The position numbers were made by a program, and so were the translations under genes. From assembly GCA_017514665.1 (NCBI GenBank), contig JAFWIX010000008.1, positions 62,001 through 126,000 on the forward strand: DNA of 64,000 bases, written 5' to 3'. Of the stretch, positions 9,344 through 50,905 are shown piece after piece (the first letter of the stretch is position 1; each line of letters begins with the position of its first letter). Under the pieces are notes generated by a model. That model was not told the DNA's origin, did not search any database, and was given only the letters and a program-made list of their open reading frames with translations. The stretch comes from Candidatus Saccharimonadota bacterium. GTDB taxonomy: Bacteria > Patescibacteriota > Saccharimonadia > Saccharimonadales > Saccharimonadaceae.

Positions 9344-10762
9344 ATGAATTTCAAGAATATTTTCCGGTCGTTCAAAAACAAGGATATGCTAAAGCGTATT
9401 TTGGTGATTTTTGGCATTATCGTTGCCTATCGCTTGCTCGCACATATCCCAGTGCCTTTGGGCGATGCTGCTACTTTCAAAGACGCCATCTCCAATCTCA
9501 TTGCTCAATCTGACTTTGGTGGCTTCATCAACTTGATTTCTGGCGGTGGCTTGACTGCATTTTCGATTATTCTTGTCGGTCTTGGTCCTTACATCACCGC
9601 CTCGATCGTCATCCAGCTTCTCACTAAGGCTATACCTAGCCTAGAAGAATTGTCGCGTGACGGCGAGACTGGTCGTCGCAAAATCAACCAGTGGACGCGT
9701 ATTGTTACTGTGCCATTAGCAATCATTCAGTCTATTGCTTACATCTTTATTCTTTATCAATCAGTCACATCATCAGGGGCTACACTAAGTTTCGAACCAA
9801 CCACTGCCGACTGGGTGCTCTCTGTGATTGCCATGACTGCTGGCTCTACACTCTTGATGTGGTTTGGTGAATTAATCACTGAGCAGGGCATTGGTAATGG
9901 TATTTCTATGATGATCTTTGCCTCTATTATTTCCCAGCTTCCCGCCACTCTCACCACGCTTGGCAACGCCCTCTTTGACACTTCCGCTGGCACCTTACAA
10001 CTATTTGGTTGGTTTGAGTTGCCAGTCAACCCAACTATCTTCTGGATCTGTCTCGGTTTCGTCGTCGCCATGCTAGTAGTAATTTACTTTCTGGTCAAGA
10101 TTAACGAAGCACAGCGAATTATCACCATTAATTACGCCAAACGTGTCCATGGTAATAGTAGCTATGGTGGTATCAAATCCATCTTGCCAATCAAACTCAT
10201 CGCCGCTGGTGTAATTCCCGTCATCTTTGCTACTGCCTTCCTTTCTTTGCCGTCACTAATGGGTCAAGTTATGGTCTCGGCCAATCCTAATAACAGTTTT
10301 GGTGCTACACTAGTCAGTCTCTTTTCTGCGCCCTCCGCCAATACTTACGCTAATATGTATCCAAATGGCCTAACCGCTCAATGGTTCTTCTACCCGGTGA
10401 TGTATTTCTTGTTAGTAGTATTATTTACTTATTTCTATACTTCTATTATCTTCAACACTCGAGAAATCGCTGATAATCTGCAAAAACAAGGCGGCTTCAT
10501 TGAGGGCGTTCGCCCTGGCCTCAAAACCGCCGATTACTTATCTCGTATTATCAATCGTCTCAATCTCTTCGGCTCCATCGCGCTTGGTTTGATTGCGATG
10601 TTGCCATTTATTACTGATTATATCTTCATTATCATCACTGGCGCACCGATTGGTCTATCGATTTCGGGTACTGGTCTCCTTATCGTGGTCACCGTTGCCC
10701 TCGAAAGCATCCGCCAGCTCAATTCCCGCGCGTTAATGGTAACTTATGACGAGTACGAATAA
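9344..10762 (+). CDS. secY: Protein translocase subunit SecY
   Basis: SecY is the channel of the Sec translocase in the cytoplasmic membrane. The 472-residue protein shows about ten hydrophobic segments. Conserved features are AYRLLAHIPVPLGD after TM1, the plug region, LGPYITASIVIQLL, the sequence GQAINGISMMIF-like around EQGIGNGISMMIF, and the cytoplasmic loop motif near QKQGGFIEGVRPG. It ends a ribosomal run, as in most bacteria. The downstream sortase follows after one base. Confidence 0.97.
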   Translation: MNFKNIFRSFKNKDMLKRILVIFGIIVAYRLLAHIPVPLGDAATFKDAISNLIAQSDFGGFINLISGGGLTAFSIILVGLGPYITASIVIQLLTKAIPSLEELSRDGETGRRKINQWTRIVTVPLAIIQSIAYIFILYQSVTSSGATLSFEPTTADWVLSVIAMTAGSTLLMWFGELITEQGIGNGISMMIFASIISQLPATLTTLGNALFDTSAGTLQLFGWFELPVNPTIFWICLGFVVAMLVVIYFLVKINEAQRIITINYAKRVHGNSSYGGIKSILPIKLIAAGVIPVIFATAFLSLPSLMGQVMVSANPNNSFGATLVSLFSAPSANTYANMYPNGLTAQWFFYPVMYFLLVVLFTYFYTSIIFNTREIADNLQKQGGFIEGVRPGLKTADYLSRIINRLNLFGSIALGLIAMLPFITDYIFIIITGAPIGLSISGTGLLIVVTVALESIRQLNSRALMVTYDEYE

Positions 10763-20798: not shown

Positions 20799-20875
20799 GC
20801 GGGCGTAGCTCAGTTGTTTAGAGCGCTTCCTTGCCAAGGAAGAGGTCGTGAGTTAGAGTCTCATCGCCCGCACCA
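20799..20875 (+). tRNA. tRNA-Gly (GCC) with altered 19-56 pair
   Basis: A 77-nt cloverleaf with encoded CCA. The acceptor GCGGGCG pairs with CGCCCGC, and the anticodon loop TTGCCAA gives GCC. The D loop has G18-T19 in place of GG, and the T loop is TTAGAGT with A56 in place of C56. The two changes keep a Watson-Crick U19-A56 tertiary pair. The discriminator is A, which is not the U73 typical of bacterial tRNA-Gly. The CCA end touches the following antiporter gene. Confidence 0.93.
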
Positions 20876-20892: not shown

Positions 20893-21867
20893 ATGGAAAT
20901 TTTACTGCAATTTATTCTACTAGCTGCTGGATTCGTTTTCCTAATCAAGGGCGCTGATTGGCTTGTCGATGGCGCTTCTTCTGCAGCTTCCAATTTCAAA
21001 GTTAGTAAACTTCTAATCGGCCTTACTATAGTGGCTTTTGGCACCGGCGCCCCAGAGCTCGCGGTGTCTTTTTCTTCATTTTTCAATGGTAGCACCGATA
21101 TTCTAATTGGTAACGTCATTGGTAGCAATATCATCAACGTACTCCTACTCATCGGTATTGCGGCCATCATTTGCCCTATCAAAGTCAAAAAAGACACTGT
21201 TTCTAAAGAATTACCTCTGCTCCTTTTAATTTCCACTGCTTTGATAATTTTACTTCTAGATGTTGATCTATCTGAGGCAGTTATTAATACCTTCTCTCGC
21301 GCTGACGCTATTATTTGCCTGCTTTTCTTTGGTATTTTTCTCTATTATCTCATCTCTCTTGCTCGCAAAAACAAGAAAGAAGCCAAAAAGGTCGAAAAAC
21401 CCAAATATAAACTCGGCAAATCTATCCTATTTGTCTTGGTTGGCCTAGCTGGTATCGTTGCCGGTAGTGAACTTGTAGTGAATTCCGCCTCTACTATTGC
21501 TTCTACCGTCGGTATATCTGAGCGTATCATTTCGCTTACTATCGTCGCTCTGGGTACCTCTCTGCCCGAGCTTGTCACCACTATCACTGCCGCCAGAAAA
21601 GGCGAAAACGATCTTTTGATCGGCAATATCGTTGGCAGTAATATCTTTAACATTTGTATTGTACTTGCTTTGCCGGTTCTTTTCTCCGGTGGGATCACGC
21701 CAGATAACTTCGAAGTTATCGATCTTACGATGTTAATTCTTTCTTCGTTCTTGATTTGTATTCTAGCGAGGCGAGGGCACGAAATTTCTCGTATCGACGG
21801 AGCATTGATGCTTATTATCTTCTTTATCTATTATGGTTATCTGGGCTACGGGGCTTTAGCAGTATAA
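20893..21867 (+). CDS. CaCA-family calcium/sodium antiporter
   Basis: This membrane exchanger (YrbG-like) has two inverted repeats of about five helices. Alpha-1 reads GTGAPELAVS followed by GNVIGSNIINVLLLIG, and alpha-2 reads GTSLPELVTT followed by GNIVGSNIFNICIVL; these form the ion-binding site. The preferred start 20893 gives 324 residues with the usual short N-terminus; an in-frame ATG at 20875 overlaps the tRNA CCA. There is no ribosome-binding site, so it may be translated from a tRNA-processed, nearly leaderless message. A terminator follows. Confidence 0.9.
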   Translation: MEILLQFILLAAGFVFLIKGADWLVDGASSAASNFKVSKLLIGLTIVAFGTGAPELAVSFSSFFNGSTDILIGNVIGSNIINVLLLIGIAAIICPIKVKKDTVSKELPLLLLISTALIILLLDVDLSEAVINTFSRADAIICLLFFGIFLYYLISLARKNKKEAKKVEKPKYKLGKSILFVLVGLAGIVAGSELVVNSASTIASTVGISERIISLTIVALGTSLPELVTTITAARKGENDLLIGNIVGSNIFNICIVLALPVLFSGGITPDNFEVIDLTMLILSSFLICILARRGHEISRIDGALMLIIFFIYYGYLGYGALAV

Positions 21868-50769: not shown

Positions 50770-50786
50770 TCAATCTGTGCTATAAT
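50758..50786 (+). promoter_or_regulatory. Promoter of rplJ-rplL
   Basis: TTGTAC (50758-50763), a 17-nt spacer and TATAAT (50781-50786) preceded by TGC, overlapping the rplA stop. Confidence 0.7.
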
Positions 50787-50792
50787 TAGCAT

Positions 50793-50905
50793 AGTTACCA
50801 AAGACAGTGGCGAGGTTTATACCTTTAATCATGCTACCGAGGCAAATTCTTGTTTTATTTGGTGACGTATTTTAACAATCAGCTAGCTTTTTAATTCAAA
50901 AGGAT
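50793..50905 (+). promoter_or_regulatory. Ribosomal protein L10 leader
   Basis: The leader before rplJ has the L10-leader arrangement: AAGACAGTGGCGAGG in the 5' half, GCTACCGAGGCAAAT in the 3' half and a closing GTTACC/GGTGAC stem. In the family, L10 (or the L10-L12 complex) binds this kink-turn element and represses its own translation. Confidence 0.75.

Follow-up and report, generated by a model that had tools for sequence, protein, structure and literature searches.

The tRNA-Gly(GCC) gene at positions 20799-20875 probably encodes, to judge from its sequence, an ordinary and essential elongator tRNA of Saccharibacteria-like type, in which the docking pair G19-C56 is exchanged for U19-A56. 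The gene lies in a window of 64,000 nucleotides (C5:62001-126000), the whole stretch of DNA analysed here, which is part of a genome of 670,673 bases in 10 contigs (about 96% complete). The 19-56 pair closes the stack between the D loop and the T loop, and the ribosome is among the many partners that touch its outer face (PMC4810234, PMC7912444). On the genomes compared, the exchange is real, class-wide and specific to one isoacceptor, and it resides in an essential decoding tRNA: in the tRNA-Gly(GCC) of the class the pair appears to be fixed as U19-A56 or A19-U56, with flips between these two states that leave no surviving mismatch, and G-C is never seen. The features of the gene and of its 3' neighbor are:

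20799-20875, + strand: tRNA-Gly(GCC) gene with encoded CCA (ARAGORN; Rfam RF00005, 69.7 bits; whole-genome tRNA census)
20812-20820, + strand: D loop AGTTGTTTA, with G18 at 20816 and U19, usually G19, at 20817 (sequence, ARAGORN structure)
20833-20835, + strand: anticodon GCC, for the codons GGC and GGU (ARAGORN, codon usage)
20853-20859, + strand: T loop TTAGAGT, with A56, usually C56, at 20855 (sequence, ARAGORN structure, covariation with position 19)
20872, + strand: discriminator A73, usually U73 in bacterial tRNA-Gly (sequence)
20893-21867, + strand: calcium/sodium antiporter gene, directly 3' of the tRNA gene (NCBIfam TIGR00367, 247 bits)

The replacement of G19 and C56 by U19 and A56, which was the core of the original prediction, is confirmed by the sequence, by ARAGORN, and by Rfam. 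The D loop is numbered A14, G15, U16, U17, G18, U19, U20, U20a, and A21, and the T loop U54, U55, A56, G57, A58, G59, and U60. The exchange in the elbow is restricted to 19-56: G18, U54, U55, G57, A58, G53-C61, and G15/C48 are all canonical. The tRNA lacks the G19-C56 of a canonical elbow and carries a Watson-Crick pair at 19-56 together with G18-U55 and U54-A58. The acceptor stem (GCGGGCG/CGCCCGC) and the anticodon supply all the glycine identity elements, G1-C72, C2-G71, G3-C70, C35, and C36 (PMC9976931). The gene is not degenerate, as testified by its model score, which ranks 7th among the 43 tRNAs of the genome. When compared with the canonical bacterial tRNA-Gly(GCC), represented by E. 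coli glyV/glyW, the same cloverleaf, anticodon, first three acceptor pairs, G18-U55 pair, and T-loop fold are observed, as is the decoding role, predicted in our case, whereas U19-A56 replaces G19-C56 and A73 replaces U73. We infer that U19-A56, or A19-U56, would do the usual structural job of holding the L-shaped molecule together at its elbow, and that selection would act on Watson-Crick pairing and stacking and not on G-C identity.

The open reading frame of the antiporter opens at 20875, the final base of the tRNA CCA. Since the alignment with the antiporter homologs of Saccharibacteria loci begins only at residue 6-8 of this frame, the ATG at 20893 is the likely start. The tRNA and antiporter genes may form one transcription unit; their order is common to ruminant-gut Saccharibacteria (for example L099, with about 71% DNA identity).

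A whole-genome census with ARAGORN found 43 tRNAs, including three glycine tRNAs, whose listing the original prediction had advised: GCC, CCC, and UCC, in one copy each. The codons GGT and GGC make up about 79% of the glycine codons in 454 long open reading frames of the genome, and the single GCC copy, their sole reader, is thus indispensable for translation. Both Gly(CCC) and Gly(UCC) keep G19-C56, as do the tRNAs for Pro and Arg(GCG) with their GC-rich anticodons. The three other tRNAs of the window, Ala(GGC), Thr, and Leu, are canonical at 19-56, as first described; the uniqueness that this implied does not extend to the genome, where two alanine tRNAs outside the window deviate as well:

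C5:3190-3266, - strand: tRNA-Ala(UGC), A19-U56
C10:16883-16958, + strand: tRNA-Ala(CGC), A19-U56

Among other structured RNAs, Rfam detected an L10 leader in the window (50780-50902, + strand, 53 bits) and a tmRNA (C7:10944-11306, - strand, 80 bits), the latter probably divergent, as it was missed by ARAGORN. No T-box reached the Rfam gathering score in the whole genome, and co-evolution with a T-box, or a tRNA-Gly read by a glycyl T-box, was rejected.

The exchange in tRNA-Gly(GCC) is general throughout the genus and the order to which the genome belongs. With any base allowed at position 56, 207 of the 247 order genomes gave a match and, among the matches listed, all were U19-A56 or A19-U56; in G026, a near-complete order genome without a match, the tRNA is cut by a contig end. 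A search of 373 class genomes for C56 or G56 yielded no tRNA-Gly(GCC), its single match not being a tRNA. An anticodon-free pattern was then applied to 119 order genomes; the tRNAs with G36 anticodons (Leu CUN, Pro, His, Gln, and Arg CGN) fall outside this pattern and their 19-56 pairs were checked in the genome under study only. Non-G-C pairs were found in the tRNA-Gly(GCC) of 106 of these genomes, by hand count 84 with U19-A56, 22 with A19-U56, and none mismatched, in the comparison of 19-56 in relatives that had been proposed at the outset. The 44 further matches are all tRNA-Ala (GGC, UGC, or CGC) with A19-U56, and the same pattern returned no exchange in the Val, Asp, Ile, Lys, Met, Phe, and Thr tRNAs of the 119 genomes. 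Within the order and among the isotypes searched, the deviation thus appears confined to Ala and Gly(GCC). The exchanged tRNA-Gly(GCC) is nearly always present as a single copy per genome across the class. U-A and A-U occur together within two genera (g1, g31) and four families (f8, f29, f32, f33), indicating at least six switches if these taxa are monophyletic. In the rest of the phylum G19-C56 prevails in tRNA-Gly(GCC), and A19-U56 is found in families f83, f113, and f70.

A scan of a species-level genome collection, with a pattern that also permitted A-A and U-U, gave at least 116 named loci; among the matches listed, 58 are U-A, 58 are A-U, and none is mismatched, in 59 distinct sequences. 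The covariation of positions 19 and 56 in these loci (Fisher p about 2e-17, relatedness ignored) bears out the claim that the change is compensatory. Many of the matches listed belong to Candidatus Saccharibacteria and combine U19-A56 with A73; together with the shared gene order, they suggest that the window comes from a Saccharibacterium. Indeed, A73 accompanies U19-A56 in 58/58 listed loci, and U73 accompanies A19-U56 in 56/58, the groups with A19-U56 and U73 being, among the matches listed, Clostridia, Labilibaculum, Flavobacteriales, Bdellovibrionota, SAR86, and Peregrinibacteria. The recurrence in nearly all relatives and the perfect covariation are, in the loci compared, far beyond chance. 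Beyond the class, tRNAs with this body seldom show the exchange (1/249 Bacillota and 2/148 Bacteroidota genomes, each chosen center genome counted).

The tRNA-Gly(GCC) with A19-U56 and U73 is sporadic across unrelated phyla (L081-L158), for instance in Clostridia (L081), Labilibaculum (L114), Oligoflexia (L128), and SAR86 (L100). The tRNAs of Clostridia, Bdellovibrionota, Labilibaculum, SAR86, and Peregrinibacteria resemble that of the window in the isoacceptor and in the Watson-Crick exchange at 19-56, but differ in the A-U orientation, in carrying mostly U73, and in not being class-wide, with few cases among the Bacillota and Bacteroidota sampled. In Labilibaculum, A19-U56 is also present in Gly(UCC), and in several copies. 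Three viral contigs (L200, positions 10074-10150, L204, and L209) carry a tRNA-Gly(GCC) of the Saccharibacteria type, with U19-A56 and A73. In L200 the tRNA gene adjoins genes for a phage integrase and RecT, and genes for endolysin and tail proteins are close by, suggesting that L200 is likely a Saccharibacteria phage. Viral contigs (L195-L284, plus other loci) also carry A19-U56 in many different tRNA isotypes, most commonly Thr(UGU), with 4/131 mismatched; these counts were made without a G19-C56 background and imply no enrichment.

The discriminator base has a different context. A73 is present in each of the three glycine tRNAs that the genome encodes, in place of the bacterial U73; it was reported in only 239 of 232,109 bacterial tRNA-Gly (PMC6097841) and often accompanies an α2 GlyRS (PMC3990555). 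In line with the original prediction that A73 may match a dimeric GlyRS, the genome encodes an α2 GlyRS (498 bits summed against TIGR00389), which is a compact dimer of about 440 amino acids per subunit, and tblastn with the E. coli GlyQ and GlyS queries gave no significant match to the tetrameric type in this genome. The combination, α2 present and α2β2 not found, is that of archaeal and eukaryotic glycylation. The dimeric enzyme scored above cut-off in 19 of the 20 genomes searched, this one included. The E. coli DTD query likewise gave no significant tblastn match in the genome, where a divergent DTD is possible; polynucleotide phosphorylase and TruB were significant in the same search. U73 is described as shielding Gly-tRNA-Gly from DTD (PMC6097841), and where DTD is missing the need for this shield would disappear. 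The window tRNA is like archaeal and eukaryotic tRNA-Gly in A73 and the α2-type GlyRS, but has a bacterial body, a U-A elbow, and the compact form of the synthetase. The elbow exchange is one trait, and A73 with the compact dimeric GlyRS is a separate one.

Why G-C was lost can be answered only tentatively. The reason that we prefer, unproven and possible rather than probable, is a tuning of decoding, by which an elbow closed by two hydrogen bonds would be slightly softer and would suit tRNAs whose codon-anticodon helices, with GGY and GCN, rank among the strongest. Such a role fits the fact that the deviation is limited to Ala and Gly(GCC), which read the first two codon positions through G-C pairs. 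It does not fit the Pro and Arg(GCG) tRNAs, which retain G19-C56 despite their GC-rich anticodons, or the same retention in Gly(CCC) and Gly(UCC). The Watson-Crick pair 32-38 is another known tuning element. The set of tRNAs that carry it differs from the deviating set, which speaks against tuning here, and 32-38 was discarded as an indicator of tuning.

Drift constrained by pairing is a reasonable candidate too, if short of a probable one: the ancestor of the class would have lost G19-C56 in Gly(GCC) by chance, only Watson-Crick pairing would have been selected thereafter, and the absence of G-C would reflect history and not function. The pairing kept without exception in the 116 loci listed and the flips between U-A and A-U are as this reading predicts, and the sporadic A19-U56 in Clostridia, Bdellovibrionota, Bacteroidota, and SAR86, and in many isotypes of viral contigs, indicates that the pair tolerates the change. 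However, pure drift would not be expected to give at least six switches between U-A and A-U with G-C never restored in 373 genomes, nor to stay within Ala and Gly(GCC).

Co-evolution with the synthetases, in which an AlaRS devoid of C-Ala and a compact dimeric GlyRS would have removed or replaced the requirement for G19 as an identity element in tRNA-Ala and tRNA-Gly, is unlikely. It has in its favor that the deviating isotypes are Ala and Gly, and that their synthetases are class II enzymes that touch the elbow, AlaRS through C-Ala and GlyRS through Ins3 in human and, as has been proposed, B2 in E. coli (for Ins3 and C-Ala, PMC9908026). In Caenorhabditis elegans, C-Ala reads G18G19 of tRNA-Ala as a sequence determinant, and restored pairing with position 56 fails to rescue charging (PMC10485164). 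Moreover, the AlaRS of the genome (624 amino acids, C2:6553-8427, L351) stops behind the editing domain, with no C-Ala domain at its C terminus. This feature is widely shared, with AlaRS of about 570-660 amino acids in most of 77 phylum genomes, matches that stop near profile position 690-750 of 847 in the sampled phylum, and C-Ala missing in nearly all Patescibacteria sampled. As the loss is phylum-wide while other classes mostly keep G19-C56 in tRNA-Gly(GCC), C-Ala loss cannot be the whole cause and was rejected as the sole one. The canonical Gly(UCC) and Gly(CCC) tRNAs of this genome also argue against co-evolution, as does the canonical state of isotypes with synthetases for which no elbow contact is known.

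It is rather doubtful that the identity of 19-56 forms an isoacceptor-specific code in Saccharibacteria, in which a non-G-C pair would mark Gly(GCC) and tRNA-Ala for some factor. This factor, which would either read the pair or fail to read it, could be the minimal AlaRS or GlyRS, an enzyme of tRNA modification, the ribosome, or a toxin that targets tRNA. Discrimination between Gly and Ala through different elbow pairs was considered separately and dropped, since A19-U56 is present in both tRNAs of several genomes (G088, G109, G115).

The original prediction considered a special role possible. That the tRNA is non-proteinogenic, for instance supplying glycine to cell-wall synthesis like its counterparts in staphylococci, is very improbable. 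Altered D and T loops, a hallmark of the staphylococcal non-proteinogenic tRNA-Gly, are the point of resemblance. These staphylococcal tRNAs, however, are extra copies with disrupted elbow contacts, whereas the window tRNA is the sole GCC copy, needed for most glycine codons, with the Watson-Crick 19-56 pair retained and G18 and U55 intact, and the exchange is class-wide and nearly always in a single copy. It is probably not a special-role tRNA. The chance of a sequencing or assembly error, or of a degenerate duplicate beside a normal gene, both named beforehand as possible refutations, is negligible, because independent genomes of the class show the identical two bases and the census found no second GCC glycine tRNA.

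A class in which an essential isoacceptor has no G-C at 19-56 and has flipped repeatedly between U-A and A-U is a natural experiment that sets "must pair" against "must be G-C", and because the deviation is limited to Ala and Gly(GCC), the question can be tested. A73 in these tRNAs breaks the U73 rule of bacterial tRNA-Gly. In the open PMC literature, which leaves most subscription papers outside, we found no earlier report of A19-U56 or U19-A56, and one may exist. If the 19-56 pair were indeed read as an isoacceptor-specific code in Saccharibacteria, a pair regarded as "invariant" would carry information.
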